Origin: a virus
Length of the DNA: 43,212 bases
Virus record (IMG/VR): IMGVR_UViG_3300029448_000099
Span: 1-43,212 of that record
Strand: one strand, 5' to 3'
Below are positions 5,495 to 42,340 of the stretch, one piece after another. Each line of letters begins with the position of its first letter. Position 1 is the stretch's first letter. A program made the position numbers and the translations under genes. Under the pieces are notes generated by a model, which saw nothing but the letters and a program-made list of their open reading frames with translations, had not been told where the DNA came from and did no database searches.

Positions 5495-6592
5495 ATGGCA
5501 TTTACAGCAGCAGCTGGACATGGTAATCTTCCTAACGGTAATTTTAGTCCTATTATTTACAGCAAACAGGTTCAACTTGCTTTTCGCAAGGGGTCTGTAG
5601 TCGATTCAATCACTAATAATGATTATTTCGGTGAGATTGCTAATATGGGCGATTCCGTTAAGGTTATCAAAGAACCAGAAATAACTGTTAAGGCATACGA
5701 GAGAGGAACTACTATTACTCCTCAAGACCTTGACGATGAAGAATTTTCACTTAATATCGACAAAGCTAATTACTTTGCATTTAAAGTGGATGATATTGAG
5801 GAAGCTCATTCGCATATCAACTTTCAACAGTTGGCATCTGATAGAGCAGCCCATAGACTAGCCGACCAATTTGACCAAGACGTACTTGGTTATATGGCAG
5901 GTTTTAAGCAGTCAGCTATACATGGTGCTCCAAATACTGTTAACACAACTGTTAATGGTGCTAAAGCAGTAAGTACAGCTTCCGATGGTGCTAACTTAGT
6001 TGGTGCAGAATTATTAGCTTCAATGTCACTTGATGCTTCTGATTTTACGCAGACAAATGGCACAGCAGGTTCAGCAAATAATGCGATTGGTTTAGAGCCA
6101 AGAGCAGGTGGTGCAACTGCTGCAAAAAGTGGAACAACAGGTAATGCATTTCCATTACAAGTTATTGCACGTATGTCTAGATTACTAGACCAGCAAAATG
6201 TAGACACTAATGGCAGATGGTTAGTTCTTGACCCAGTATTCATCGAATTGTTAAAAGATGAAGACTCAAGACTACTAAATTCTGATTTTGGTGGTTCTGG
6301 ATTACAGAATGGTCTTGTTATGAATAACTTACATGGTTTTAAGATATATACATCTAATAACCTTCCTTCAGTTGGAACAGGTTCGTCTACCACAGGTGGT
6401 CAGAACACTTCTAACTATGGTGTTATTGTAGCAGGTCACTCTTCATCAGTAGCTACTGCCGAGCAAATCAACAAGACAGAGACTTATAGAGACCCTGATT
6501 CTTTTGCTGATATTGTTCGTGGTATGCATTTATATGGCAGAAAGATACTTCGACCTGAAGCTATCGTTACTGCTGCATACTGTTTAGCATAG
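5495..6592 (+). CDS. Major capsid protein
   Basis: Protein of 365 residues expected to form the icosahedral shell. The evidence is its position after the scaffold, the strongest ribosome-binding site of the arm (AAGGAGATTTTAAA then ATG), and capsid-like sequence. An N-terminal arm contains 'FSPIIYSKQVQLAFRKGSVV' and 'GDSVKVIKEPEITVKAYERG'. A helical 'SHINFQQLASDRAAHRLADQ' block follows near 105-125. The C-terminal half has an alternation of strands including GRWLVLDPVFIELLKDE and ends in 'YGRKILRPEAIVTAAYCLA'. Overall this suggests a coat protein of the HK97 fold, although the fold itself cannot be proven by reading. Residues 140-210 are Ala/Thr/Gly-rich and may form a surface loop. Confidence 0.88.
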   Translation: MAFTAAAGHGNLPNGNFSPIIYSKQVQLAFRKGSVVDSITNNDYFGEIANMGDSVKVIKEPEITVKAYERGTTITPQDLDDEEFSLNIDKANYFAFKVDDIEEAHSHINFQQLASDRAAHRLADQFDQDVLGYMAGFKQSAIHGAPNTVNTTVNGAKAVSTASDGANLVGAELLASMSLDASDFTQTNGTAGSANNAIGLEPRAGGATAAKSGTTGNAFPLQVIARMSRLLDQQNVDTNGRWLVLDPVFIELLKDEDSRLLNSDFGGSGLQNGLVMNNLHGFKIYTSNNLPSVGTGSSTTGGQNTSNYGVIVAGHSSSVATAEQINKTETYRDPDSFADIVRGMHLYGRKILRPEAIVTAAYCLA

Positions 6593-6604
6593 GGAGAATA
6601 GATT

Positions 6605-7087
6605 ATGGCGAATATTACTGCTGTTCTTAAAGCCGCTTCTGGCAACTCCCAGAGAGGCAGAAACGTATACTATATGGATAATGTTATTGACTTAACTGCT
6701 AATAGCATTAATCCAAACGGTGATACTATTCAAGCTATCACAGTTCCAGCTAATACTCTTATCGTAGCTGCAGGTCTTCAGGTTGTAGAAAGTGCAACTC
6801 AGAATACTGGCACAGATGCAACTGCATCACTTGGTTTCACAGGTGGTGACGTTGATGAGTTTGTTGCAACTTTTGATATTGATGGTGCTGCCGATGGTGC
6901 TTATGCTCCTCAGATTGCAATCACAGGTTTGACTGCTTCTACTTCTGCTGACACTATTGATGTGTTATTAGCAGGTGGTGGTGCATCATTTACTGCTGGT
7001 AAGATACGTGTGTATGCAATGATGATGGATATAAGTGACCAAGGTGATATGTCTGCTGACGAAGTTGACAGAGACCAATTAGCTTAA
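6605..7087 (+). CDS. Small virion protein, possible capsid decoration protein
   Basis: A 160-residue protein 12 bases after the capsid gene and preceded by a GGGAGAATAG leader. It is Ala/Thr/Gly/Asp-rich, predicted mostly beta, with no charged helix and no enzyme motif. Its pattern ('ITVPANTLIVAAGLQVVES', 'ATASLGFTGGDVDEF') is shared, as I remember, with a family of small proteins found right after the capsid gene in marine phages. A decoration or cement protein is a reasonable guess from location and composition, but not established. Confidence 0.6.
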   Translation: MANITAVLKAASGNSQRGRNVYYMDNVIDLTANSINPNGDTIQAITVPANTLIVAAGLQVVESATQNTGTDATASLGFTGGDVDEFVATFDIDGAADGAYAPQIAITGLTASTSADTIDVLLAGGGASFTAGKIRVYAMMMDISDQGDMSADEVDRDQLA

Positions 7088-7100
7088 ACTTAATATAAGT

Positions 7101-7126
7101 TAAGGGCAGCTTTAAGGTTGCCCTTA
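7101..7126 (+). terminator. Strong stem-loop between capsid-module and tail-module genes
   Basis: TAAGGGCA at 7101-7108 pairs with TGCCCTTA at 7119-7126. Three inner pairs (two of them G-U) leave a TTAA loop, giving an 11-pair stem. It lies 13 bases after the stop codon of the preceding gene. No T tract follows, so it may act as a partial terminator or as an RNA-processing or 3'-protection structure, limiting read-through from the highly expressed capsid genes. Confidence 0.5.
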
Positions 7127-7155
7127 CTTCATGTGATATTAAAAGGAGATTTTAA

Positions 7156-7593
7156 ATGGCTATCACGACTGCAATGTGCAAAAGTTTTAAGTCTGAATTA
7201 TTAGGTGGTATTCACGACCTTGATACTCATTCACTTAAACTAGCACTTATCAAAGCATCCCCATCAGGTACATATAATAACGCTACAGCTAACTACTCTG
7301 ACGTAACAGGTAACTCTGACGAAGCAAGTGGTACAAATTATTCTGCAGGTGGTCAGGTTTTAGACAGTGCGTCTATATCTCTTTCTGGAACAACTGCAAT
7401 TGTAGACTTTGCTGACGAGGTATTTTCAAACGTAACAACATCTGCTGATGGTTGTATTATTTATAACGCAAGTGCATCTAATAAAGCAATTGCTGTTATT
7501 GACTTTGGTGGTACAGTATCTGCGACTGCAGGTGACTTAACTATTCAGTTCCCAACGGCTGACGCTTCTAACGCTGTAATACGTATAGCTTAG
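7156..7593 (+). CDS. Conserved small virion protein, unknown function
   Basis: A 145-residue protein with a strong AAAAGGAGATTTTAA ribosome-binding leader, almost the same as that of the capsid gene. The N-terminus 'TTAMCKSFKSELLGGIHDL' is followed by a beta-rich body with 'SLKLALIKA' and 'AIAVIDFGGT', ending in a 'GDLTIQFPTAD' strand. I recall this layout from a widespread family of short phage proteins located between capsid and tail genes. Function is unknown; a virion component is likely from context. Confidence 0.6.
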   Translation: MAITTAMCKSFKSELLGGIHDLDTHSLKLALIKASPSGTYNNATANYSDVTGNSDEASGTNYSAGGQVLDSASISLSGTTAIVDFADEVFSNVTTSADGCIIYNASASNKAIAVIDFGGTVSATAGDLTIQFPTADASNAVIRIA

Positions 7594-7603
7594 GGGGTAG
7601 GAC

Positions 7604-8470
7604 ATGTCGTTCTACGGTGCTAATGATGCTATATATGGTTCAGGACAATACGGTGCTGCTTCTTTCGGTGTCGTAACTCCTATCATAGTTTTAGGGTCTG
7701 TTAGTGCTACAGGACACGTAACTGCTACCAATACTACTATTAGTGTAACACTGTCAGGTGTTAGTGCTACAGGACTAAGTGGAACTGTTACTGCTGTTAA
7801 TGATTCGAGCTTAACACTAGGCTCTGTTGTTGCAACAGGATTCGTTAATACACTATCTGAAAATCCATCAGAGGCAATTACAGGTGTATCAGCTACAGGT
7901 TCTATAGGAACTGTTTTTGCTCAAGCATTCTTTGGTGCTAATGATGCTATATACGGAACTGGTCGTTATGGCACAGCTACATATGGTAGTACTTCACCTA
8001 CAATAAATGCTCCGAGTAGTCTAGCTACAGGTGCAGTCGCATCAGTTGGAGTTGGTGCAAGTGAAAATTTAGCAAGTGTTTCAGCTACAGTAACACTTGG
8101 TTTAGTTAGAACTATACCATTTATACTTCAGTCTGTTTCAACTACAGGTGCAGTAGGAACTGTATTCTTAGTAACAAGTGCAGGTGTGACAGGTGTATCA
8201 GCTACAGGTGCTATAGAACAAGTACAGGTAGATGGTTTTGAGATAGATGTTCAAGAAAGACTTCAGTCTGTTTCGGCTACAGGTGTTATAAATGGTACAA
8301 TAACACATAGCAATACACATCGTATAACTTCAGCAATAGGAACATCTACTGCAGGGATTATAACAGCAACAGGAGTTACTTTTAATTTTATTGCGAATGA
8401 CTACGACAGAAAAAGAGTTGTATATGTACCAAGACAAGATACCGCTGCTGAACGTAGAGCAGCTGCATAG
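7604..8470 (+). CDS. Repeat-containing virion protein
   Basis: A 288-residue protein built from two kinds of repeat. A YGANDAIYGxGxYG unit occurs at residues 4-22 and again at 110-128. A short (S)VSATG element (GVSATG, SVSATG and variants) recurs at least ten times between residues 31 and 258, spaced about 15-20 residues apart. This suggests a regular beta-stranded, possibly solenoid or fibrous structure. The C-terminus changes to a charged tail (DYDRKRVVYVPRQ). The gene lies 10 bases after the previous gene and directly before the fibre-tail adaptor and tail genes. A tail or head-surface fibre role is inferred; no enzyme motif is seen. Confidence 0.6.
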   Translation: MSFYGANDAIYGSGQYGAASFGVVTPIIVLGSVSATGHVTATNTTISVTLSGVSATGLSGTVTAVNDSSLTLGSVVATGFVNTLSENPSEAITGVSATGSIGTVFAQAFFGANDAIYGTGRYGTATYGSTSPTINAPSSLATGAVASVGVGASENLASVSATVTLGLVRTIPFILQSVSTTGAVGTVFLVTSAGVTGVSATGAIEQVQVDGFEIDVQERLQSVSATGVINGTITHSNTHRITSAIGTSTAGIITATGVTFNFIANDYDRKRVVYVPRQDTAAERRAAA

Positions 8471-8479
8471 GAGAATTAA

Positions 8480-8824
8480 ATGTCTTTTCGTTGGACACCA
8501 AAAGACCCAGATGAAAGTTTAGATTATAGTATAGATTGGTCACGTTTCCTTAATACAGCTACCATCTCTTCTGTTACATGGTCTGTTAAAACACCTGAAA
8601 TAAGTAAGACAACGTTAGCCGCAGGACAAACTCTAACAACTGCATCATCTAACGCTGTAACTGACAATATACAGAATATAGCTCAAACAAATACAGACAC
8701 TGTAGCCACTATAAATATAGCTGGTGGAGTGTTAAATCGTGAGTATATTTTTACTTGTAGCATAATTGATAGCACAGCAAGTCAAGCTGAAAGAACTGTA
8801 AAAATGCGAATAAGGGAAAATTAA
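8480..8824 (+). CDS. Fibre-tail adaptor-like small protein
   Basis: A 114-residue protein starting with WTPKDPDESLDYSIDWSRFL, the pattern of a small phage protein family that databases commonly name 'fiber-tail adaptor'. The rest is beta-rich, Thr/Ser/Ala-rich and ends in a basic KMRIREN. That is consistent with an Ig-like domain. AGGAGAATTAA precedes the ATG. Its stop codon overlaps the next ATG (TAATG), so translation is probably coupled to the tail adaptor gene. The name follows the family pattern; the role itself is inferred. Confidence 0.55.
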   Translation: MSFRWTPKDPDESLDYSIDWSRFLNTATISSVTWSVKTPEISKTTLAAGQTLTTASSNAVTDNIQNIAQTNTDTVATINIAGGVLNREYIFTCSIIDSTASQAERTVKMRIREN

Positions 8825-9552
8825 TGGCTTATAATTATTTAGAACTTGTCAACCAAGTAAATCGCAGATTAAATGAAGTAGAACTTACTTCAAGTAATTT
8901 TCCTACTGCTACAGGTTTTTATGCTCAAGCAAAAGATGCAATAAATGCATCTATACGTGACATAAACCAACATGAATTTAATTGGCCCTTTAATCACGTA
9001 GAACAAGAAGATATAGTATCTGCAAACGTTACAAGATACTCATTTCCTCAAGATGCAAAGTTAGTTAATTTTGATAGCTTTCGTATAAAAGCTGATACAA
9101 CTTTAGGAAATTCAACAATAAAACTAGGCAACATAGCGTATGAAGAATATCTTGAAAAATATGTAGACCAAGAATATAATACAGGTAGTAGAAAGGGTGT
9201 GCCTCAAAGAGTTGCACAAGGACCTGCTTTAGAATACTTACTTACTCCTCAACCTGATAAAGCCTATACAGTTGTATATGAGTATTATCGTTTTCCTGTA
9301 GATTTAATTTTGTTTGATGATGTTCCTGTTATTCCTGAAAGGTTTAAACATATTATTGTTGATGGTGCAATGCACTATGCTTACCTATTTCGTGGTAATT
9401 CACAAGATGCGATGGTAGCTAAACAAAAGTTTGATGAAGGCATAAAAAATATGCGTATTGTTTTAATCAATAGAACATACTACTTACGTTCTACAATGAT
9501 ATCACAAAATACAGGTGGTGGTGGTACAGGATTTTCTAGGTCTGTTATCTAA
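8824..9552 (+). CDS. Tail tubular protein A-like adaptor
   Basis: A 242-residue protein resembling T7 gp11-type adaptors that ring the portal and connect it to the tail. The N-terminal helix LELVNQVNRRLNEVEL is followed by paired helices (AKDAINASIRDINQ) and a central beta region with 'YEYYRFPVDLILFDDVPVIP'. A C-terminal helical hairpin (HIIVDGAMHYAYLF) completes it. This order is characteristic of podovirus adaptor proteins. It overlaps both neighbours by one base (TAATG), and the nozzle-like gene follows, which is the usual pairing. Confidence 0.78.
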   Translation: MAYNYLELVNQVNRRLNEVELTSSNFPTATGFYAQAKDAINASIRDINQHEFNWPFNHVEQEDIVSANVTRYSFPQDAKLVNFDSFRIKADTTLGNSTIKLGNIAYEEYLEKYVDQEYNTGSRKGVPQRVAQGPALEYLLTPQPDKAYTVVYEYYRFPVDLILFDDVPVIPERFKHIIVDGAMHYAYLFRGNSQDAMVAKQKFDEGIKNMRIVLINRTYYLRSTMISQNTGGGGTGFSRSVI

Positions 9553-11082: not shown

Positions 11083-12990
11083 ATGGGAACAGGATATACT
11101 CGTAACGATGCATCAAACAATATAGCTGATGGTAACGTTATTAACGCATCAGACCTTGATGGTGAGTTTGACGCAGTTCAATCTGCCTTCAATGGTAGTA
11201 GTGGACACTCACATGATGGAACAACAGGCGAAGGACCACTAATTGCCGCAGGAGGTATAGCAAGTAATGCTGTGACAACTGCAAAAATATTAGATGCCAA
11301 CGTCACTACAGCTAAAATAGCAGATGCTAATATTACTGTAGCTAAGATGGCTGACAACTCTATAAACAGCGACCAATATGTAGATGGTTCAATTGATAGG
11401 GAACACTTAGCCGCTGACATTGTTGATGGTACAAAGATAGCTGATGACTCAATTAATTCAGAACATTATGTAGATGGGTCAATTGATACTGCTCATATTG
11501 CAGATGCACAGGTTACGTTAGCGAAGATAGCAGACCAAGGTGCAAATTCAGTATTAGTTAGAGATGCTAATAGTTCAGGTGTTGTTTCTGCAAAAGCAGT
11601 TGGAGACACACAATTACTTATAGGTGATGGAACAGGTTTTACAGCGGCGGCATTATCAGGCGATGTAACAATGGCAAATACTGGAGCAGTTACAATTGGT
11701 GCTCAAAAAGTCTTAAACTCTATGTTAGCAGACGATGCAGTAGGAGCAGATGAATTAGCTGCTAATGCTGTGGTAACTGCTTCTATTGTAGATGCAAATG
11801 TCACAACTGCCAAAATAGCAGATGCAAATGTTACAACTGCAAAAATAGCAGGTGATGCTATCACAGGAGCTAAGATTGCAGATGATGCAGTTGCTTCCGA
11901 ACATATAGCCGATAATGCTGTGGCTTTAACAACACAGACAACAGGTAACTATGTAGCAACAATTACTGCAGGAACAGGTATATCAGGCTCATCGTCTAGT
12001 GAAGGTGGTACACCTACGATTGCTCTTGCCGCAGCAGGTGCAGGTGCAGCTACTTATGGCTCAACAGATGATGGAACAAAGATAGATACAATCACCTTAA
12101 ATGCTTATGGACAAGTTACAGCAGTAGCTACTGGTGCTACGATGGATACGTGGATTCTTGAAGATGGTGATGGTACAGAAGTTGCAATTACAAATGATAA
12201 GGAAGTAAAGTTTGTTGAAGGTGGTGGTATTGACATTAACTGGACTGATACAGATAACGGTACTGATGGTGACCCTTACGACTTAACATTTACAATAAAC
12301 ACGGATGTTACTGCAGGTAATGGATTAACAGGTGGTGGTACATTAAGTTCATCAAGAACACTTGCTGTAGGTGCAGGAACAGGTATTGATGTTGCGGCTG
12401 ATGCTATCTCTGTCGATGTGTCAGATTTTATGACTAATGGTAGTAATAATAGAGTTGTAACAGCAACAGGTGCAGATGCTATGAATGCAGAAGCTAATAT
12501 GACTTTTGATGGTTCAACTCTAAACGTTAGTGGTGCAGTGTATGCAACTGGTAATATAGGTCTAGATTCAACAGACTACATTTCATTCAGTAATAACAGC
12601 CATATGAATATTCATATAAACAACAGTAATGAATTTAGATTTGAATCAGATGGTGACTTTCATGCAGATGGTGACGTAATTGCTTATTCAACAACTGTAT
12701 CAGATGAAAGACTTAAAACAGACATTGAAAAGATTGAAAATGCTACAGACAAGATAAGTCAACTTAATGGTTATACATTTACATACAAAGCAGATGGTGT
12801 AAAATCAGCAGGTGTTATTGCACAAGAAGTAGAAAAGGTTCTACCAAGTGCAGTAAGTGAGAAAGTATTGCCATTGAAGACAGACGATGGTGTAGCATAT
12901 AAGACAGTTCAGTATGACCAAATCATAGGTCTGCTAATTGAGTCAATCAAAGAACTTAAGCAAGAAATAAATGAATTAAAAGGAGTTTAG
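11083..12990 (+). CDS. Tail fibre with C-terminal S74 intramolecular chaperone
   Basis: A 635-residue receptor-binding fibre. The N-terminus (VINASDLDGEFDAVQSAFN, then GHSHDGTTGEG) is the usual virion-attachment segment. Residues about 65-290 are made of imperfect repeats of TTAKIADAN and of NSEHYVDGSID, consistent with a long trimeric fibrous shaft. A beta-rich region follows. The last 100 residues form an endosialidase-type intramolecular chaperone of the Peptidase S74 family. Its signature SDERLK starts at Ser540-Asp541, and it ends in GVIAQEVEKVLPSAV and a helical tail. In this family the trimeric chaperone cleaves itself off just before the serine after folding the fibre. The gene starts after GGAGATAAAAAA. 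Confidence 0.82.
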   Translation: MGTGYTRNDASNNIADGNVINASDLDGEFDAVQSAFNGSSGHSHDGTTGEGPLIAAGGIASNAVTTAKILDANVTTAKIADANITVAKMADNSINSDQYVDGSIDREHLAADIVDGTKIADDSINSEHYVDGSIDTAHIADAQVTLAKIADQGANSVLVRDANSSGVVSAKAVGDTQLLIGDGTGFTAAALSGDVTMANTGAVTIGAQKVLNSMLADDAVGADELAANAVVTASIVDANVTTAKIADANVTTAKIAGDAITGAKIADDAVASEHIADNAVALTTQTTGNYVATITAGTGISGSSSSEGGTPTIALAAAGAGAATYGSTDDGTKIDTITLNAYGQVTAVATGATMDTWILEDGDGTEVAITNDKEVKFVEGGGIDINWTDTDNGTDGDPYDLTFTINTDVTAGNGLTGGGTLSSSRTLAVGAGTGIDVAADAISVDVSDFMTNGSNNRVVTATGADAMNAEANMTFDGSTLNVSGAVYATGNIGLDSTDYISFSNNSHMNIHINNSNEFRFESDGDFHADGDVIAYSTTVSDERLKTDIEKIENATDKISQLNGYTFTYKADGVKSAGVIAQEVEKVLPSAVSEKVLPLKTDDGVAYKTVQYDQIIGLLIESIKELKQEINELKGV

Positions 12991-12993
12991 TAA

Positions 12994-13827
12994 ATGCCAC
13001 TTCCTAGTTCTGGTCAAATTAGTTTAGCGAACATTGCATCTGAGTTTGGTGGGTCTGCTCCCCATGCTCTATCTGAGTATTATAGCAAGCATAATGCTCC
13101 AGCTTCAGGTGAGATACAGATAGCAGCTGATTTTTATGGTGCTGATAATACTCCCCCATCTCCTCAAACATTCAGTGGTGCTGGTACAAGTACTCTAACT
13201 ATCGCAGATAATGTTCTGGCTATTGGTGTTCAAGTCGTTGGTGCAGGAGGCGGAGGCGGTGGTGCTGGTGGTCAAGGTAATGGAGGCTCTGGTGGTGGAG
13301 GTGCTGGTGGTAACATCATTGCTTACTTCAATGTTAGTGCTGGACAAACTGTAACAGCAACTCGTGGGTCAGGTGGTTCTGGAGGAATGTTAATTCCAAA
13401 TCCAAATAGAAGTGGACCTGGATCAAGTGGTCAAAGTAGTTCGGTTACAGTTGGTAGTACAACTATAGCTACTGGTAATGGTGGAGGTGGTGGAAAAACT
13501 TCTCAAGGGTCACCTGCAGGTGGTGGAGGTGCTGGTGGAGGCACAAGTAATAATGGAAGTGCTTACAATGTAACTGCAAACACTGGTAATGCTGGTGCTA
13601 ATGGTCAAGCATTTTTTGGGTTTAATGGTGGTGCTGGTGGTTCATCTCCAGTAGGGTCAGGAGGATCAGCAGGCAACAATGCGACAGGTGGTAGTGGAGG
13701 AATTGGTGCTGGTGGTGGTGGTTCTGGTTCTAACATGGGTATCAGAAGTGGTGCTGGTGGTGGTGGAGGATACGTAAAAGTTACCTTTTACACTTCACAA
13801 AATCCAACACCTGACCTAAGTTTTTAG
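12994..13827 (+). CDS. Glycine-rich tail adhesin-like protein
   Basis: A 277-residue protein just behind the tail fibre. The N-terminal 45 residues (SSGQISLANIASEFGGSAPH, then 'LSEYY') form a module common at the start of marine phage tail proteins. From about residue 80 to the end the chain is extremely rich in glycine, with runs such as GAGGGGGGAGG, GGGGAGG and GGSGGIGAGGGGSG separated by short beta strands. This resembles distal fibre adhesins in which polyglycine II helices form a sandwich (as in T-even-like gp38). A receptor-binding tip is therefore a good guess. AAAAGGAG precedes the ATG. The dioxygenase cassette begins 400 bases later. Confidence 0.6.
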   Translation: MPLPSSGQISLANIASEFGGSAPHALSEYYSKHNAPASGEIQIAADFYGADNTPPSPQTFSGAGTSTLTIADNVLAIGVQVVGAGGGGGGAGGQGNGGSGGGGAGGNIIAYFNVSAGQTVTATRGSGGSGGMLIPNPNRSGPGSSGQSSSVTVGSTTIATGNGGGGGKTSQGSPAGGGGAGGGTSNNGSAYNVTANTGNAGANGQAFFGFNGGAGGSSPVGSGGSAGNNATGGSGGIGAGGGGSGSNMGIRSGAGGGGGYVKVTFYTSQNPTPDLSF

Positions 13828-13857: not shown

Positions 13858-14151
13858 ATGGCAGATTTTGTTTTACAAGAAATTCATAGAAATAAGTTGG
13901 TCAATGATGCTGATTTTAGGCAACAATGTTATACAGGTATGCAAATGTATGCTTCAGCAGTGCAAGAAATAATAAGTGGTAGTTCCATAACTATTCCTCA
14001 ATCAGACCTTGACAATCTTTCCAATGATTTCAAGCGTGAAATTGTTAATAATCATGTGTCTTATTTATCAGAAATGGTTAATCAAGATTTTTGGACAAGT
14101 GAAGATATGACAGCAGTAAATAATGCGATTACAAATGGTAATGCTTATTAA
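13858..14151 (+). CDS. Hypothetical protein at the end of the tail operon
   Basis: A 97-residue protein with a good GAGGAG site 10 bases before its ATG. It is soluble, helical and mildly acidic, with no cysteine cluster or recognisable domain. It closes the tail-fibre gene series and is followed by a new promoter. It may be a fibre assembly or attachment factor, but nothing in the sequence shows this. Confidence 0.5.
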   Translation: MADFVLQEIHRNKLVNDADFRQQCYTGMQMYASAVQEIISGSSITIPQSDLDNLSNDFKREIVNNHVSYLSEMVNQDFWTSEDMTAVNNAITNGNAY

Positions 14152-14167
14152 AAACCTATTTTATGTG

Positions 14168-14196
14168 TTGACTTTCAGATATAAAAATGTTATAAT
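14168..14196 (+). promoter_or_regulatory. Near-consensus sigma-70 promoter of the dioxygenase cassette
   Basis: TTGACT (14168-14173), a 17-base spacer, then a perfect TATAAT (14191-14196) with an upstream TGT giving an extended -10. It sits in the only gap between the tail genes and the first dioxygenase gene, and its start site would lie about 20 bases before that gene's AAGGGAG site. This is the best promoter I can find in the window and suggests that the cassette is transcribed independently by host RNA polymerase. Confidence 0.75.
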
Positions 14197-14225
14197 CTTA
14201 TGATATTTTATAAAGGGAGAAAACT

Positions 14226-14822
14226 ATGGACAATGTTCCTACAACAGGGGATTCAGTTTGGTTTGGTACATTAATTAGAGAACTACAATTAAACATCAAT
14301 ACAAATAATTTACTTAGATTTGTTTACAATGAACAAAAGAAATTACCACATTCAAATTTGGGAACAGTTGCAAACGGTTGGCAAAGTCCTAATTTAAAAG
14401 ATGATGTAGTTTTTAAACCTTTAACAAATGAAATTTTTAAAAATTTAAATGGTCTGAGTGATTTATTTTTAATTAGAAAAGATAAAAAACTTGTAATCAG
14501 TGCTATGTGGGCAAATATTAACCCATCAGGAGGTTCAAACATACCACACACACACCCTAATTCAATATTGTCTGGAGTTTTTTATTTAAAATGTAATGAT
14601 AAATCTGGAAATATATGTTTTACACACCCTGCTATGAATCACAATTATCATTTTGATACATTTTCTGTATCAAACTATAATAATATAAATGCAGGTTCTA
14701 GACAAATTAAACCAAATGTAGGTAAAATGTTAATATTTCCATCATATCAATATCATTATGTACAAACTAATTTGTCAAATGAAGACCGAGTTACTTTAGC
14801 ATTTAACACATGTCTTATATAA
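14226..14822 (+). CDS. Fe(II)/2-oxoglutarate dioxygenase, TIGR02466-like
   Basis: A 198-residue putative dioxygenase and first gene of a four-gene oxygenase cassette. It matches the pattern of the TIGR02466 / 2OG-FeII_Oxy_5 group. 'SAMWANINPSGGSNIPHTHP' places candidate iron ligands at H108/H110. The strand 'SGVFYLKC' follows, then 'GKMLIFPSYQYHYV' with the distal ligand H177, and finally 'DRVTLAFN' with R188 for the 2-oxoglutarate carboxylate. Length fits the family. These enzymes hydroxylate or otherwise oxidise a substrate using O2 and 2-oxoglutarate; the substrate is unknown. It is the only cassette gene with a normal Shine-Dalgarno site (AAGGGAG). Coding sequence is very AT-rich, about 20% G+C in parts. 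Confidence 0.75.
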   Translation: MDNVPTTGDSVWFGTLIRELQLNINTNNLLRFVYNEQKKLPHSNLGTVANGWQSPNLKDDVVFKPLTNEIFKNLNGLSDLFLIRKDKKLVISAMWANINPSGGSNIPHTHPNSILSGVFYLKCNDKSGNICFTHPAMNHNYHFDTFSVSNYNNINAGSRQIKPNVGKMLIFPSYQYHYVQTNLSNEDRVTLAFNTCLI

Positions 14823-14830
14823 ATTAAATT

Positions 14831-15478
14831 ATGAACACAGTATCACAAAATTGGAAAGTAAAAGTTGTAAAAAAAGGCAAAACACCACATGTTATTTTTG
14901 ATAATTGGTATACACCTAATGAAGAAAAAAACATTTGGAAAGAATTAGATTGGTATTCGTCTCAAGAAAGTATAGAAAGAGCAGAGAATACATTTGTTGC
15001 AACATATGATGATGGCATATCAAAGTCTAAAGCGTCTCGTTTTCACATTCAAAACTATTTTACAACAGAAGGGATGCAAAGAAGTCATGTTTTTAATTAT
15101 ATGTATAAACAAAGGTTAACTGAATTTCATAATATTGTAGGACAAATAAAACCTTATTGTAATAGTTTCTTTTCTACAAATGCTGATGGTACACTTATTT
15201 CATATTACGAAAACAATGAATATTATGATGCACATTGGGATGATTATGCATGGACTATGTGCATATGGTTTGTAAGAGAGCCAAGATTATTTGATGGTGG
15301 CGATTTTGACTTTCCAGATTCTAAACAAAAAATACAATTAAAACACAATAGGGCAGTGTTCTTTCCTTCTATGTTTGAACATAGGGTAACTCCAGTCAAA
15401 ATGAAAATAGAGACAAAAGAAATAGGATATGGTAGATACACAATAACACATTTTTATATTTCTGTGCCTAGAGGTTAA
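14831..15478 (+). CDS. Fe(II)/2-oxoglutarate dioxygenase, prolyl-hydroxylase-like
   Basis: A 215-residue putative dioxygenase with a clear double-stranded beta-helix signature. H135-W-D137 is the iron-binding HxD. FDGGDFDFPD follows, then 'AVFFPSMFEHRVTPV' gives the distal H184, and 'GRYTITHFYI' gives R202 as the 2-oxoglutarate anchor. This is the layout of the prolyl 4-hydroxylase alpha-like superfamily. It follows the first dioxygenase by 8 bases, in an AT-rich leader without any visible Shine-Dalgarno sequence. The sequence is not a recent duplicate of its neighbours. Substrate unknown; protein side chains are typical of this superfamily. Confidence 0.78.
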   Translation: MNTVSQNWKVKVVKKGKTPHVIFDNWYTPNEEKNIWKELDWYSSQESIERAENTFVATYDDGISKSKASRFHIQNYFTTEGMQRSHVFNYMYKQRLTEFHNIVGQIKPYCNSFFSTNADGTLISYYENNEYYDAHWDDYAWTMCIWFVREPRLFDGGDFDFPDSKQKIQLKHNRAVFFPSMFEHRVTPVKMKIETKEIGYGRYTITHFYISVPRG

Positions 15479-15490
15479 AAATTATAAACT

Positions 15491-16066
15491 GTGCAAAATG
15501 CAATACACACATATTGGGTTTTTAAAAATGCTATTAATAAAGAAACATGTCAAAAAATAATAGATTTAGGTAAAAATAAATGGGCACAAGCTAAAATACA
15601 AGTTAATTTGCAAAACAAAGGGCAACTTGATACAAAAGCTAGAACTTCAGATATAGCTTGGTCTAATGATGATTGGCTTTACAACGTTTGTTGGGATTAC
15701 CTTAATAATGCAAACAAAAACGCAAATTGGAATTTTGAAATTAGTGCTTGTGAACCTATGCAGATAACTAGATATAAAAAACATGGACACTACGATTTTC
15801 ATTTTGATGGTAATGGTTTCACTAGATTTAATTCGTCAGAAAATAAACTTTTACATGGAACAGTAAGAAAATTATCAATGACAATCGTACTTAATGAAGA
15901 TTATGAAGGTGGAGAGTTTGAATTTTTTGATGATATAAATTTAGTTAAAGAAAAAATAGGCACTGTTATTGTGTTTCCATCATATTTGGTACATAGGGTC
16001 AGACCAGTAACAAAAGGTATTAGATACTCATTAGTTTCATGGTTTGTTGGACAACCTTTTTTTTAA
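15491..16066 (+). CDS. Fe(II)/2-oxoglutarate dioxygenase, PKHD/P4Hc-like
   Basis: A 191-residue putative prolyl-hydroxylase-type dioxygenase. All expected residues are present: HFD with H104 and D106, 'EDYEGGEFEFFDD', then 'GTVIVFPSYLVHRVRPV' with H168, and GIRYSLVSWFVG with R178. This spacing is that of the P4Hc/PKHD hydroxylase family. The best start is a GTG at 15491; no ATG in frame gives a complete domain and no Shine-Dalgarno site is visible, which suggests weak or coupled translation. It lies 12 bases after the second dioxygenase gene. Confidence 0.78.
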   Translation: MQNAIHTYWVFKNAINKETCQKIIDLGKNKWAQAKIQVNLQNKGQLDTKARTSDIAWSNDDWLYNVCWDYLNNANKNANWNFEISACEPMQITRYKKHGHYDFHFDGNGFTRFNSSENKLLHGTVRKLSMTIVLNEDYEGGEFEFFDDINLVKEKIGTVIVFPSYLVHRVRPVTKGIRYSLVSWFVGQPFF

Positions 16067-16075
16067 ATATATAAT
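16048..16075 (+). promoter_or_regulatory. Possible internal promoter before the fourth dioxygenase
   Basis: TGGACA (16048-16053, one mismatch to the -35 consensus), a 16-base spacer and a perfect TATAAT (16070-16075) lie across the end of the third dioxygenase gene. A start near 16083 would give a very short leader to the next ATG at 16094. In such AT-rich DNA a chance match is possible. Confidence 0.35.
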
Positions 16076-16093
16076 ATAGGTTAGTTAAAAAGG

Positions 16094-16783
16094 ATGAAAA
16101 AAAATTATGCACAACAGTTACAAGAAAACAACTATGTTCTTGTAAAAAATTTTATAACAAAAGATATGGCTCAATATTTATATGATTATACTTTATTAAA
16201 AAGCAAAGCCATAAAGACAATGATTTTGCGAGGATTTTTGCCTTGGGATAATTTTCTAGGTAATTTTCATAACGTAGGAAGGGATGGACAAGCACAAGTA
16301 CCTGATAGTTTTGGTATGTATGGTGATTTTGCGATGGAAACATTATTAAATAATAGCACTAAAAAAATGGAACAAATAACTGGTTTAAGTTTATGTCCAA
16401 CTTCTTCTATGCAAAGAATTTATGAATATGGTCAAGAATTACTTAGACATAAAGATAGAGAAAGTTGTGAAATATCAGCTACAGTATGCCTAGGTTATGA
16501 CCATAGCAATGCACCTAATGGCTATGATTGGGGTTTGTACGTAGAAAAATCAGGTGAAGAAGGATTAGAAGGTAAACAAATATGTTTGGCTCAAGGTGAT
16601 GCAATTGTTTATCGTGGATATGATATTGAACACTGGAGAGAGCCATTCAAAGGGAATATACAATCGCAAGTTTTTTTATTTTATAACGATATAAATGGGA
16701 AATATGCTAAAAACAATAAGTATGACAGAAGACCTTTTTTGGGTCTACCAGCACAATTTATTAGAGAATCTCAGGAGACTTAG
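16094..16783 (+). CDS. Putative Fe(II)/2-oxoglutarate dioxygenase, divergent
   Basis: A 229-residue protein, fourth of the series and the most divergent. RIYEYGQELLRHKDRESCEI supplies an HxD at H119-K-D121. A middle block has 'ISATVCLGYD' and 'WGLYVEKSG'. 'CLAQGDAIVYRGYDIEHWRE' supplies the distal H180, and a Q-rich strand (IQSQVFLFYNDI) follows where the 2-oxoglutarate-binding residue would sit. I recall similar proteins in cyanophages. Its AAAAAGG site directly abuts the ATG, an unusually short spacing, so initiation may be leaderless-like or weak. Substrate unknown. Confidence 0.65.
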   Translation: MKKNYAQQLQENNYVLVKNFITKDMAQYLYDYTLLKSKAIKTMILRGFLPWDNFLGNFHNVGRDGQAQVPDSFGMYGDFAMETLLNNSTKKMEQITGLSLCPTSSMQRIYEYGQELLRHKDRESCEISATVCLGYDHSNAPNGYDWGLYVEKSGEEGLEGKQICLAQGDAIVYRGYDIEHWREPFKGNIQSQVFLFYNDINGKYAKNNKYDRRPFLGLPAQFIRESQET

Positions 16784-16978
16784 ATGAAACAACAAATGCA
16801 GCCTGAACTAAAAGTACAAATGGAACTAGATGCACATGAAAAAGAATGTGCCATTAGATATCAAGCAGTCAATGAAAAACTATCTGCTCTAGACAAAAGA
16901 ATGTGGCGAATAGAAGCTATGTCTATGGTGGGTACACTTGGGGTGGTAGCTTTGATTGTAGCAATAGTGATGAAGTAA
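16784..16978 (+). CDS. Small single-span membrane protein, holin-like (XhlA-type architecture)
   Basis: A 64-residue protein that starts directly after the stop codon of the fourth dioxygenase. The N-terminal 40 residues form a charged amphipathic helix (likely coiled coil, 'KECAIRYQAVNEKLSALDKRM'). The C-terminus is one strongly hydrophobic span (MVGTLGVVALIVAIVM) followed by a lysine. This architecture resembles XhlA-type holins and similar phage membrane proteins. It would act in the inner membrane at lysis. No endolysin gene is recognised next to it, so the role remains inferred. Confidence 0.5.
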   Translation: MKQQMQPELKVQMELDAHEKECAIRYQAVNEKLSALDKRMWRIEAMSMVGTLGVVALIVAIVMK

Positions 16979-28060: not shown

Positions 28061-28218
28061 TGCTTATCCTTTCTCTTAGATTTAGGTTTTAGATGTAAAA
28101 ATTCTCTAATGTGTAGCTTCCTACCTTTAAAGAATACTATTAAGTTTATTGTAGTATTGATGGAAATGGCGATTAATAACCACCACTGCCACCATAATAG
28201 TTCTGCAGATTCTAACAT
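28057..28218 (-). CDS. Small single-span membrane protein
   Basis: A 53-residue frame filling the gap between the reductase and GIY-YIG genes. Its ATG overlaps the reductase stop codon (TAATG) and its stop overlaps the next ATG (ATGA), so it is surely translated by coupling. The N-terminus has the Trp-rich LLWWQWWLLIAI, followed by a hydrophobic span to about residue 30, then a very basic tail (KPKSKRKDKQ). This gives a predicted N-out/C-in inner-membrane peptide. Function unknown; it resembles small phage membrane effectors or holin accessory peptides in layout only. Confidence 0.6.
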   Translation of the reverse strand: MLESAELLWWQWWLLIAISINTTINLIVFFKGRKLHIREFLHLKPKSKRKDKQ

Positions 28219-30149
28219 TAACTAGCCTGTATGTCAACCATCTCACACGCATCTGCTGTGCAAGCTAGTTCCCTTCCACCACTAGTTGAATCTTCTTTTT
28301 CAAAGTGTTGCAATTTAGACCAATCAATAGAATCAGGCATCTCATGTGACAATGCATAATACTTTGCTTCATCTATGTCTTGATAAGGTGCTTGAGCATA
28401 TGTATGGTCACTGAAGGGTAGGAATGATATTCCTGATACTTCATCAAAGTTATCATATACCCATGCTCCCACTTTCATCCACTCATCTTCCTTAACAGAC
28501 ACAGTAACAGAAGGCTTATGCTCACACCAATGTCTTTGGAATATGAGCCAATACTCTAGCTGTTCAATAGCTGTCATATCAGTTCTTGTGGTAGCACCTG
28601 ATGGTGACTTCATAGGAAAGCTGAACACAGTTGTACTGTCAGGCTTCATAACGTCAGGCTCACTTGGTATGCCACTTTCTTTCATAAACTGTGTGATAGG
28701 GTCTTTATTATCCCCACGAACAGTTCTGATGTAATAGTCATTGTGTCTAGCATGAATACCTGAAGCACTGTCAACTAATTGACTAACTGTACCACTAGGT
28801 TTGACACAAGTTATAGCAGTTGATTGTGTTATGTCTAAATCTTTAGCAATCTTCTTATTAGTTTCAACTGCTACATGTCTTAGTTGTTCTAGTACACTTT
28901 CTAATTCAGGATTATCAACCATTAATAGTGGACAGTCAAGTATACCTGTTAGGGAAACTCCTAATAGTCTTTCTTCTTCTGTATTATCTTTCCATATCTT
29001 ACGTAGATACTTAAAATTAGTAAGAGTTGATTGGAATGTACCCAAGATTGTAGCTATACGTACTTTTTCTTTCAAGGATTCTAAGTCATCTGTAACTCTA
29101 CACACTACCTCTGTAAGATTACAGAACTGATAAGGTCTAAGTATAATCTCACTACATGGATTGCAACCAAAGTAGTGGTCAGTTTCTCGTCTACCATTCT
29201 CAGATGCCTTCACTTTAGCAGCCTGTCTATTAAATATACCACGTTCTCCTGACTTAGATTCATATAGGGATGTCCATTCTCGCATAAATGTACCCATCTC
29301 AGGCTTACCTTTAAATGCTACAGAGTTATTAGCTAATGCTCTCTGACCTTCATTCTCCCACCATTGACCTGACTTGGCATGACGCATTTGGTCATCACCT
29401 AAGTTGGATAAGGATATAAGTGCAGACCTACGTACACCACCAACAACTACAACTTCACCTATCTTGCACATAATATCATGGCACTCAATAGGAAATAATC
29501 GTCTGCCTTTAGCACCCTTAAACTTTTGTATGCAAAAGTGAAACAACTCAATTAATGGAGCAGGTCCTGATGCTCTACCACCAAATGTTTTTAACCTAGC
29601 ACCTGCAGGTCTTACCTGTGACGTATCCCATGTAGGTACTTGCCCTACATAGAGCATAGCAATAAGTTCTCTTAATGCCTTTGCCCATCCGGGTCTGCTG
29701 TCACCTACAGTGATGATAGTAGTGCTGTCCTCAAAGTGTTCATTGACTATAGGTAGCTTGTCTACATTCTCACGTTCTACAGAGAACCCTACACCTGTGC
29801 CACACATAAGTATGTACATACATTCGTCAAATGAACGTGGACTATCCACAGGTATATAACTACAGTTATAACCACCTACATGGCATCTATCTAACGCAGG
29901 TCCTGCTGTCATTAAGGCTCTCATGCTAGGCATTACACCTAAGTTCATTATCTGTGATGACATCTTTTCTTTCAAGGATTTGGAAATAGTATAGTTGTGA
30001 TTCTTAGACAGATGATTAGTCATGTAGTCAAAGTATCTGTCCACAGTTTCTCCCCAATTCTCTCTTCTTTGTTCATCGTCTTTCCATCTTGCATAGCGAG
30101 ACAAGGCTATGAAGTTCTGATAGTCCGTTGGTAAATAGTTACTTAGCAT
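28218..30149 (-). CDS. nrdJ: Adenosylcobalamin-dependent (class II) ribonucleoside-triphosphate reductase
   Basis: A 643-residue monomeric ribonucleotide reductase that makes deoxynucleotides for phage DNA synthesis using coenzyme B12 rather than an iron or glycyl radical. The family pattern matches the Lactobacillus leichmannii enzyme. C96 lies in GGYNCSYIPVD, and NPCSE supplies the thiyl radical C332 with E334. C343 lies exactly 11 residues further on as the second redox cysteine. A C-terminal pair C630 and C635 (ACTADACE) fits the shuttle pair. These spacings equal those of C119, C408/E410, C419 and C731/C736 of that enzyme. A GGAG site lies 8 bases before the ATG. Confidence 0.9.
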   Translation of the reverse strand: MLSNYLPTDYQNFIALSRYARWKDDEQRRENWGETVDRYFDYMTNHLSKNHNYTISKSLKEKMSSQIMNLGVMPSMRALMTAGPALDRCHVGGYNCSYIPVDSPRSFDECMYILMCGTGVGFSVERENVDKLPIVNEHFEDSTTIITVGDSRPGWAKALRELIAMLYVGQVPTWDTSQVRPAGARLKTFGGRASGPAPLIELFHFCIQKFKGAKGRRLFPIECHDIMCKIGEVVVVGGVRRSALISLSNLGDDQMRHAKSGQWWENEGQRALANNSVAFKGKPEMGTFMREWTSLYESKSGERGIFNRQAAKVKASENGRRETDHYFGCNPCSEIILRPYQFCNLTEVVCRVTDDLESLKEKVRIATILGTFQSTLTNFKYLRKIWKDNTEEERLLGVSLTGILDCPLLMVDNPELESVLEQLRHVAVETNKKIAKDLDITQSTAITCVKPSGTVSQLVDSASGIHARHNDYYIRTVRGDNKDPITQFMKESGIPSEPDVMKPDSTTVFSFPMKSPSGATTRTDMTAIEQLEYWLIFQRHWCEHKPSVTVSVKEDEWMKVGAWVYDNFDEVSGISFLPFSDHTYAQAPYQDIDEAKYYALSHEMPDSIDWSKLQHFEKEDSTSGGRELACTADACEMVDIQAS

Positions 30150-37500: not shown

Positions 37501-38406
37501 TTACCCTGTGCTTATAGCATACTTTTTTCTAGTTGTCAATGCATTTTCAGCAGAGGCATAAGTATTTTTCATGTAAGGTTTCACACTATTGGGGTTAGCA
37601 TGACCTGTAACAGACATTATTTGACCCATAGATACACCTGCTTCGACCATCTCAGTAGTGCCTGTTCGTCTTAAATCAGCTATTCTTAGCTCATCAGGCA
37701 GTCCACAGAGCTTCATTACCCTTCTCGCTACCTTTGATAGCCTATGAAGAGAGTATGGCTCGTACAATCCTTTCATCGCTGTTGGGTAGGGTGCGACATA
37801 AGACTGAAAACCATACTCTTCCTTCTGTTGATTAAGCATTTCTAATAAGTCAAGAGAAATTGGTAGATGAACTACACTTCTTCTCTTAGACTGTTGCAAA
37901 TTTAACACACTTTTATCAAAATCTATGCTAGAAAACTCTAATGTTCTCATATCTCCAACTCTTTGACACCATTCGTATGCCATTTGTACAATCAGTCCTA
38001 TGTTTCTGTACTTAAAATCACTGTAAGAGTAGTCAAGAAATTGACAGACCTGTTCTTTTGTCCACACAACTTTCCTAACGTGGGTAGCTTTTCTTCTGAA
38101 TGTAGCAAAAGGATTTGTCTCGGCATACCCCATCTCCATAGCAAATGAAAATAGTTTCCTTGCTACAGAGCATATATGATTAGCCATAGAAATGCCACGT
38201 TTTAACCACACTTCATATGCTCGTCTACATTTAGCACCTGACATCTTTGGTAATTGTGTGCTTGACAATTTCTTACCATCGACAGATGTACCAAGCATCA
38301 CACTTAAAAAGTATTGATAATCTGATTTAGTTTTATCTGCTAACATACTGAAATCACTAGATAAATAGTACTCGTCTATTAGTTTTTTAACTGTTAATAT
38401 TGTCAT
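37501..38406 (-). CDS. int: Tyrosine recombinase / integrase, with altered box II
   Basis: A 301-residue integrase with the usual N-terminal core-binding domain and C-terminal catalytic domain. Catalytic candidates are R149 (WCQRVGDM), K174 (QQSKRRSV), R246 in IADLRRTG, H269 (VTGHANPN) and the nucleophile Y278 (KPYMKN), with H-to-Y spacing of nine as in XerC/D and phage integrases. The residue that is normally histidine in the HxxR box is Ala243 (ADLR rather than HDLR). This may slow or alter activity. It suggests a temperate past or present. It lies between the primase and small genes; no clear attachment site was seen. AGGGAT precedes the ATG. Confidence 0.85.
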   Translation of the reverse strand: MTILTVKKLIDEYYLSSDFSMLADKTKSDYQYFLSVMLGTSVDGKKLSSTQLPKMSGAKCRRAYEVWLKRGISMANHICSVARKLFSFAMEMGYAETNPFATFRRKATHVRKVVWTKEQVCQFLDYSYSDFKYRNIGLIVQMAYEWCQRVGDMRTLEFSSIDFDKSVLNLQQSKRRSVVHLPISLDLLEMLNQQKEEYGFQSYVAPYPTAMKGLYEPYSLHRLSKVARRVMKLCGLPDELRIADLRRTGTTEMVEAGVSMGQIMSVTGHANPNSVKPYMKNTYASAENALTTRKKYAISTG

Positions 38407-40890: not shown

Positions 40891-41132
40891 TATACATTCT
40901 CCTTTTTAAATACTGTGTTCCAAGTCTCTTCAATCTCATCATCAAGATTACCATCACGAATAAATTCTAGTTGGTCTTTGACATATTGTATACGACATTG
41001 TTCTAGTGTCCATTTGTCTGTAGCTTCTTCATCAAAGAATAATGCAGGTTGCAGTTCTTCCTTGCTCATATTTATTGCTTGGTAATATAATATATTAACC
41101 AATGCCAACATATATCTACTTTCGTTTGTCAT
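40890..41132 (-). CDS. Small acidic hypothetical protein
   Basis: An 80-residue acidic, helical protein. Its ATG overlaps the methyltransferase stop (ATGA), so it is translationally coupled to it. It has an N-terminal hydrophobic helix ('YMLALVNILYYQAI') and an acidic remainder. No catalytic motif seen. It could be a partner or inhibitor protein but this is speculation. Confidence 0.5.
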   Translation of the reverse strand: MTNESRYMLALVNILYYQAINMSKEELQPALFFDEEATDKWTLEQCRIQYVKDQLEFIRDGNLDDEIEETWNTVFKKENV

Positions 41133-42340
41133 ACTAACTCCTTGTTTTTGTTATACATTTTATGCCACGTTACTAAATCCTCATTGTCGTGATTGATTGT
41201 ATACCACTCCATACCCTTGAGTATATGTGCAATCACATCAACTGTCCACCCATTTCCAATCATCTTGTATCTCTGACTATTGGATACATGGTTGGTGTAG
41301 TTGTCAGGTAATGTCTGCAATCTCTCACACTCTAAGGGTGTTAGCTTTCGCCACATATCTTTTGATACTACCACATTATCTTTCTGCACAGTAGTAAGAC
41401 AGTTAGACTTTTCATCAGCACGTACCTCTATTTGTCGTGTGTAGGGTAGTTCAAGTTGGTCATCTTTACGAGTACCATGCTCATCTAATCTACGATTAAC
41501 AATCCTACCTACTGCAACTTTTGGTTCTCTATGTCCACCTTGCATGGTAGTAAGGGTAGGTGCTTTGCCTTCTTGTGCATATACTCGCTTGATTGAGTCA
41601 TGCCCTTTGAGGTCAGCAGTACCAACTCTAATCAATCCATCTTTAGATACAGTAGGATTATCTTTCAGTACCATAGTACGTTGCTTACGTTCAATACTAT
41701 TCCACCATACTGCACCATTGTATCTAGCAGTAAGACAATGCGACTTGCCATCTTGACTAGTCATCTCATCTGTAGCATAGCCATCTTCTAATACGTCTTG
41801 CATAGTAATCTTCTTGTCAATCATATCATCAATAGGCATCTGCTTATATGTACCATCAGCTTGTATCTTACCAAACCAATATAGTCTGTACCTATTCTGA
41901 CCACTAAGCCACTTAGAGTTTCTAGCTTGTGGCTCAAATCCCATGTACTCTGATATCACATCTTGTGATTTCTTAGCCATACGTACATTCTCTAAGAGTA
42001 CATACTTAGGCTTGACTACCTTGAGTATATCCACAAAGTTGAAGAACAACTTACTGCGTGGGTCATCAAAGTTCAACTGATGTCCTGCAAAAGAAAATCC
42101 CTGACAAGGCGAACCCCCCATCATCAAATCTATATCCCAACATGATATCTCATATGGGTCTAGGTCTGTGACATCTCCTAGCTGAATGGTGTTAGGAAAG
42201 TTAGCTTGTGTAACTTGGATTGCATACTTATCAATCTCACTTGCATAGTAGGCACTACCCTTGCCATCAAAGGTAATACCTAGCTTTTGTAGGGCAACTT
42301 GACCACCACTACAACCATCAAATAAACTTAGTACATTCAT
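41129..42340 (-). CDS. DNA (cytosine-5)-methyltransferase
   Basis: A 403-residue C5 methyltransferase that would modify phage or host DNA. Motif I is LSLFDGCSGG (residues 4-13). Motif IV is SPCQGFS with catalytic C79, and motif VI is ENVRMAK (117-123). Motif VIII is QNRYRLYWF near 150, and motifs IX and X are LTPLECERLQTLPDNYT and GNGWTVDVIAHIL. Between VIII and IX the target-recognition region has three short repeated -LT- elements (HCLTARY, PTLTTMQ, NCLTTVQ). This layout is common in solitary phage Dcm-type enzymes; no restriction enzyme gene is beside it. It likely protects phage DNA from host restriction. Confidence 0.9.
   Translation of the reverse strand: MNVLSLFDGCSGGQVALQKLGITFDGKGSAYYASEIDKYAIQVTQANFPNTIQLGDVTDLDPYEISCWDIDLMMGGSPCQGFSFAGHQLNFDDPRSKLFFNFVDILKVVKPKYVLLENVRMAKKSQDVISEYMGFEPQARNSKWLSGQNRYRLYWFGKIQADGTYKQMPIDDMIDKKITMQDVLEDGYATDEMTSQDGKSHCLTARYNGAVWWNSIERKQRTMVLKDNPTVSKDGLIRVGTADLKGHDSIKRVYAQEGKAPTLTTMQGGHREPKVAVGRIVNRRLDEHGTRKDDQLELPYTRQIEVRADEKSNCLTTVQKDNVVVSKDMWRKLTPLECERLQTLPDNYTNHVSNSQRYKMIGNGWTVDVIAHILKGMEWYTINHDNEDLVTWHKMYNKNKELV

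Follow-up and report, generated by a model that had tools for sequence, protein, structure and literature searches.

Groups of genes for 2-oxoglutarate (2OG)/Fe(II) oxygenases have been described in several marine phages, and the nearest to the locus discussed here are those of the pelagiphages Mosig EXVC030M, HTVC008M, HTVC023P and HTVC033P (Wittmers et al. 2022, PMC9599517). Eight non-orthologous 2OG genes were recognized in that study, and a gene labelled "ferrochelatase" is frequently found together with them. Published ideas on function include nitrogen/2OG signalling and DNA repair (PMC3037559), iron and haem (PMC9599517) and seasonal metabolism (PMC11561400); earlier authors tied the pelagiphage genes to iron or host metabolism and not to the tail adhesin, and literature searches for a tail-adhesin role of these oxygenases found no paper drawing that link. 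Viral prolyl-4-hydroxylases and collagen-like tail fibres are mentioned in general terms in PMC9301287, which cites the prolyl-4-hydroxylase and collagen-like proteins of PBCV-1 (Eriksson 1999), a case in which a virus encodes a prolyl hydroxylase that probably acts on repetitive structural proteins. PBCV-1 is an algal virus, and its case is not one of four enzymes in a cassette tied to the adhesin of a phage.

The DNA analysed here (the window) is a virus record of 43,212 bases, IMGVR_UViG_3300029448_000099, from a marine phage of the HMO-2011 type. Behind a tail fibre, a glycine-rich tail protein and a 97-residue open reading frame (ORF) it carries four tandem plus-strand ORFs, g1 to g4, whose families are designated A to D; E and F denote further families found in such clusters. 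The window shares its oxygenase and "ferrochelatase" families with the pelagiphage groups, and differs from them in the order A-B-C-D, in belonging to an HMO-2011-type phage and in having its own promoter-like site. The counterparts in pelagiphage Mosig (34, 48, 32 and 44% identity for g1 to g4) lie together as a single block behind its tail-fibre and glycine-rich genes, and the adjacency of g3 and g4 is that of a "ferrochelatase" gene next to a 2OG gene, as in pelagiphage-type clusters. A preliminary sequence-only reading of the window knew of no previously described phage system made up in this way; in fact Mosig, HTVC008M, HTVC023P, HTVC033P, Syn9 and S-SM1 carry related sets, which are described in PMC9599517. 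The composition of the cluster is already known, and it is its function that has been unexplained. Judged from sequence, and with the chances evenly balanced, the cassette of this HMO-2011-type marine phage may be a module for modifying its receptor-binding protein, in which g3 would hydroxylate prolines of the adhesin.

Glycine-rich adhesins and their proline content

Profiles built for this analysis served to detect the oxygenase families, and the survey counts cover loci (numbered with the prefix L) among the matches listed in collection scans. Most of these loci are contig fragments, and "absence" of an oxygenase refers to a span of 3-5 kb or to the fragment, not to the genome as a whole. 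Gene order and adhesin linkage recur across unrelated phages. Where family D was used for retrieval, 72 of the 80 D genes in the loci are direct neighbours of another oxygenase gene; where C or D was used, the order C before D outnumbers the reverse 110:6. A protein with at least 20% glycine is encoded no more than 5 kb upstream of the first C or D gene in 23 of 31 non-redundant loci, and downstream in 2 of 49. A wide alignment of adhesin N-termini proved too variable for searching. A control set consisted of proteins that have the same N-terminal domain as the glycine-rich protein of the window; they were retrieved regardless of oxygenases, and near-duplicates were removed. Here an oxygenase follows within 4 kb after 16 of 29 proteins with a glycine-rich C-terminus and after none of the 20 without (p=2.5e-5); with stricter duplicate removal the counts are 15/27 and 0/16. 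In the clade to which the window belongs, every slot with a glycine-repeat fibre has family C (seven of seven: five with poly-Gly and two, L010 and L020, with GPT collagen-like repeats), and the five slots lacking such a fibre have no family C gene, a comparison chosen after the data were seen (Fisher p about 0.001). At the two collagen-like loci the tail fibre itself ends in GPT/GPA repeats that replace the separate poly-glycine adhesin (L010:6388-8007 and L020:6046-7653), and family C and A oxygenases still come next. The co-occurrence with glycine-rich adhesin genes, for which the sequence-only reading had suggested a survey, is positive without phylogenetic correction, and scattering of the genes independently of the tail genes did not occur.

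The adhesins beside these enzymes also differ in composition. In the N-terminal-domain set, glycine-rich proteins next to oxygenases have 6.1% proline compared with 1.5%. As this was a post hoc observation, proline was retested in new samples retrieved solely by the C-terminal motif of glycine-rich tail proteins. The first such sample gave 6.9% versus 2.3% (30 versus 31 proteins, p=5e-11), and an enlarged one, which includes the first and in which loci overlap, gave 6.4% when g3-family enzymes follow and 2.4% without oxygenases (106 versus 112, p=2e-30). When prolines were masked in building the tree, the enlarged sample gave 22 path-independent pairs, and in 21 of them the difference has the same direction (binomial p=1.1e-5); the first proline tree had offered only three pairs, too few changes, all in the expected direction. 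No other residue has a comparable effect, the next being serine, which is lower (p=0.003, enlarged sample), and proline is no different in the remaining proteins of these loci (3.9 versus 4.1%). In a regression, family C accounts for the effect (t=13.4), with a weak contribution from A (t=5.1) and none from D, E, F or G+C; family B is too rare to be judged. The G+C of C/D-positive loci is low (0.37 versus 0.46), and codon bias therefore opposes the proline effect. The window's own glycine-rich protein has 4.4% proline within its Gly-rich region, and its AlphaFold2 model is poor (pLDDT 57), such that proline positions are not readable from it. Cysteine is also higher in the glycine-rich proteins beside family C/D (1.1% versus 0.3%, 15 of 19 differing pairs, loci L320 and above).

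Because the adjacent tip proteins are unusually proline-rich, it is suggested that at least one of the enzymes chemically modifies the host-gripping tip. The sequence-only reading had named virion tail proteins as possible hydroxylation targets; this has gained the adhesin linkage and a proline signal that survives phylogenetic correction. Catalysis, the substrate and hydroxylation itself are inferred, as are its timing and whatever it does to host binding. Several observations weigh against the proposal. Tree correction of the control set leaves four informative pairs; all four agree with the expectation, but this is a trend only (p=0.125), and a further tree-corrected test in the smaller N-terminal-domain set gives 5 of 7 pairs, again a trend (p=0.45). 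Over all HMO-2011-type slots the association of glycine-rich adhesin and oxygenase is not significant (p=0.12). Some family members lie away from tail genes (L182, L184), in many cyanophages members of these families overlap uvsW, and the proline signal is silent on g2 and g4. Adhesin lineages or host groups that travel together could, moreover, yield the same correlation. The rival explanation hardest to exclude by sequence alone is of this kind: the tail tip would be a recombination hotspot, and the oxygenases, having other targets, would be linked passively to Pro-rich, Gly-rich adhesins, both being common in one host group (e.g., SAR11 phages). The exchange of slot content among close relatives (see below) agrees with it, as do the lower G+C of C/D-positive loci, which implies a different host or lineage, and the weakness of the tests on the smaller N-terminal-domain set once corrected for the tree. 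It is nevertheless unlikely, given that proline, and proline alone, is higher in nearly all of the independent pairs, and that proline tracks family C rather than D while the other proteins of the same loci are equal.

Predicted oxygenases and the "ferrochelatase" label

All four gene products look like 2OG/Fe(II) oxygenases, g1 to g3 by profile and g4 by predicted structure. The first three exceed the Pfam gathering cut-offs for 2OG oxygenases (PF13759, PF13640 and PF13640, respectively). Protein g1 also passes the TIGR02466 subfamily cut-off (92.4 bits against 62.5), and its family matches PDB entries 3bvc and 2rg4, both uncharacterised proteins. It is without the HxD/E...H triad, and has instead an HxH...H...R site in which the three histidines are invariant in 13 of 13 aligned members; HxH in place of HxD is common to its subfamily, TIGR02466/2OG-FeII_Oxy_5, the function of which is unknown. 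The predicted sites are HxD...H...R/K for g2, within a small family, and HxD...H...R for g3, invariant across 13 sequences, and the HxD...H triad is invariant in each of the family alignments of g2, g3 and g4. A basic residue after the second histidine, predicted to hold the 2OG carboxylate, is found as R188 in g1, R202 in g2 and R178 in g3. The closest solved relatives of g3 are PKHD-type 3dkq (4e-12) and prolyl-4-hydroxylase 5c5t (4e-9), making its family a sequence neighbour of PKHD-type hydroxylases (YbiX/PiuC) and bacterial prolyl-4-hydroxylases. It falls below the NCBIfam equivalog cut-off for YbiX/PiuC (56 bits versus 143), and the g3 and g4 families are phage-specific.

Protein g4 has no Pfam or NCBIfam match, and its superfamily was assigned from its fold. 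A search with g4 alone returned only three loci, and a family alignment was used for retrieval. Among 62 aligned members of the family H119, D121 and H180 are invariant. The AlphaFold2 model is confident (pLDDT 92.8, pTM 0.90) and has the double-stranded beta-helix fold of dioxygenases. Foldseek comparison with the PDB gave 645 matches at E<=0.001, the 50 listed being all oxygenases, and the best solved matches are the prolyl-4-hydroxylase of Pseudomonas putida (9e-10), HIF prolyl hydroxylases (the model resembles PHD2) and PKHD-type proteins. Residues R182 and Q192 are invariant, but there is no basic residue at H+10, the usual 2OG-binding place. The sequence-only reading's four tandem 2OG dioxygenase genes are thus upheld by the Pfam matches of g1 to g3 and the fold of g4, and profile searches leave fewer than two of the genes without a dioxygenase match. 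Its catalytic signatures stand for g2 and g3, and as the HxH variant for g1, while a "full HxD/H/R" was too strong for g4. It had also considered simple duplication unlikely. Each gene has its own closest relatives, and a recent duplication origin of g1 to g4 was rejected, although g2 and g3 do share weak homology (25% identity, E 1e-6).

The g4 family is PHROG 2954, named ferrochelatase, and this label looks like an inherited misannotation because the model's fold and its best solved matches are those of dioxygenases. A ferrochelatase (HemH) identity was rejected, there being neither a ferrochelatase profile match nor a PDB sequence match. The label was taken at face value by Wittmers et al. 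2022 (PMC9599517), who discussed haem iron insertion and Pelagibacter iron regulation, and in PMC11561400, where it is listed with auxiliary metabolic genes. That the whole set would serve as auxiliary metabolic genes, oxidising small molecules or shifting host iron, nitrogen or 2OG status during infection, is the published reading, put forward for marine phages at large (PMC3037559, PMC9599517, PMC11561400), and metabolites are the substrates of many 2OG oxygenases. Its iron/haem argument, however, depends on a "ferrochelatase" with a dioxygenase fold, and metabolic enzymes would have no need to sit behind glycine-rich adhesins or to track their proline content; it appears improbable. The structural neighbours of g4 suggest another rival, in that the nearest, P. 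putida prolyl-4-hydroxylase, was solved with EF-Tu, its known partner. Host molecules (cell-surface proteins or lipids, translation factors such as EF-Tu, or nucleic acids) might be modified for superinfection exclusion or takeover, and several families per phage would suit several targets. Such a role predicts neither the adhesin linkage, nor the gene order, nor the proline effect, and the genes lie in the tail region in the same direction with their own promoter-like site; we hold it to be quite improbable.

Proteins of family E, the PHROG "DNA endonuclease V" group, give only sub-threshold 2OG-oxygenase matches or none. Three of them (PHROG 274-like; L001:8681-9193, L013:5865-6380 and L005:7411-7995) lie inside these oxygenase clusters, and two of the three have 2OG-FeII_Oxy_3 matches, again sub-threshold, at E 3e-4 to 2e-3. 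These matches suggest a second misannotated oxygenase family. In Mosig, genes annotated as a putative haem oxygenase and as a phycocyanobilin:ferredoxin oxidoreductase directly follow the oxygenase block (L001:11002-12238).

A fixed site with exchanged content

The gp25-like protein of the window is 53% identical to that of Puniceispirillum phage HMO-2011, and its gp26-like protein is closer still (Table 1). HMO-2011 gp26 holds the same position in HMO-2011 without any cassette. Among IMG/VR relatives that share the backbone, the interval before gp26/gp25 contains A-B-C-D (window), B-C-D (L008/L009), C-A (L010), C-F-A (L020), D-C-E-F (L011/L012), C-E (L013, L015), F (L018) or D (L082), and no oxygenases in L019, L061 and L067. 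The site is constant in close relatives and its oxygenases are swapped, and this mix-and-match content agrees with the sequence-only reading that the genes appear assembled. In L011 a DUF6445 protein and a QueC/PP-loop-like protein lie between the oxygenases (6538-7212 and 8455-9153).

Table 1. Features of the cassette region of the window
Feature	Position	Strand	Evidence
S74-domain tail fibre, likely tail-tip part, upstream of module	11083..12990	+	PF13884 2e-18, tail-fibre PHROGs
Glycine-rich tail protein (29% Gly), proposed substrate	12994..13827	+	PF21722 1.5e-5, PHROG 863 tail 3e-17
97-aa ORF between adhesin and oxygenases	13858..14151	+	58% identical in L008
Promoter-like TTGACT-17-TATAAT, extended -10 (TG)	14168..14196	+	Promoter-like site scan
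g1, family A, 198 aa, 2OG-FeII_Oxy_5/TIGR02466	14226..14822	+	PF13759 1e-23
g2, family B, 215 aa, 2OG-FeII_Oxy_3	14831..15478	+	PF13640 1e-8; 48% to Mosig
g3, family C, 191 aa, GTG start, PKHD/prolyl-hydroxylase-like 2OG oxygenase	15491..16066	+	PF13640 2e-14
g4, family D, 229 aa, PHROG 2954 "ferrochelatase"	16094..16783	+	Dioxygenase fold by model
gp26-like small membrane gene, backbone, 3' border of cassette	16784..16978	+	65% to HMO-2011 gp26

The location that the sequence-only reading gave the cassette, directly after tail fibre and glycine-rich adhesin, is borne out, with four divergent dioxygenases linked to both. The holin-like gene with which it ended the block is instead conserved HMO-2011 backbone and lies outside the cassette; a holin assignment was rejected, as this gene has no holin profile match and only sub-cut-off matches to DUF2721 and the gene transfer agent rcc01685 family, besides HMO-2011 gp26. 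The likeness of its small membrane product to the head-formation family RCAP_rcc01685 of gene transfer agents is at E 7e-5, below the cut-off. The ORF between adhesin and oxygenases had no family match in profile or PHROG searches.

The low G+C seen in the sequence-only reading is real (29% in the cassette against 36.5% overall), but not as a sign of an imported, moron-type cassette. Third-position G+C is 14-19% in g1 to g4 and 15-19% in the S74 fibre, the glycine-rich protein and the 97-residue ORF; since these values are equal, the low G+C of the cassette stems from amino-acid composition, and import inferred on this ground was rejected. The promoter-like site with its extended -10, also noted earlier, was found again in the scan; it ranks in the top three of the 38 promoter-like sites, and the other two have no extended -10. 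Sites of the same form precede related clusters in 17 cases against 2.7 expected, or in 10 once duplicate contigs were removed by eye. A good Shine-Dalgarno sequence is found in g1 only and those of g2 to g4 are weak, as had been remarked for three of the four genes.

Elsewhere in the window are an integrase-like protein (37501-38406; PHROG 1, 6e-34), by which the phage may be capable of integrating, and, on the minus strand, a ribonucleotide reductase (28218-30149; PHROG 367, 1e-185) and a DNA methyltransferase (41129-42340; PHROG 116, 2e-71).

Proposed modification of the tail tip

In the proposed module the oxygenases would be made together with the late tail genes and would oxidise one or more newly made tail-tip proteins. 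The PKHD/prolyl-hydroxylase-like g3 would act, before tail assembly or in the course of it, on the glycine-rich adhesin of the gene just upstream and hydroxylate its prolines, and g1, g2 and g4 might add further oxidations on the same adhesin or on the fibre. The set of oxygenases would vary with the adhesin at the fixed site in front of gp26. More broadly, and more tentatively, at somewhat short of an even chance, exchangeable multi-enzyme sets may oxidatively tailor the receptor-binding tip of marine phages, with g3-family enzymes acting on adhesin prolines, other families leaving further marks, and each adhesin accompanied by its own enzymes.

Clusters of 2OG oxygenases are common in abundant marine phages, and the "ferrochelatase" label has been part of the reason for reading them as metabolic. 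The predicted dioxygenase fold of the g4 family, together with adhesin proline content that follows one enzyme family, narrows an open question to a testable one. If true, the proposal would add post-translational chemistry, as a further layer, to host recognition by tailed phages.

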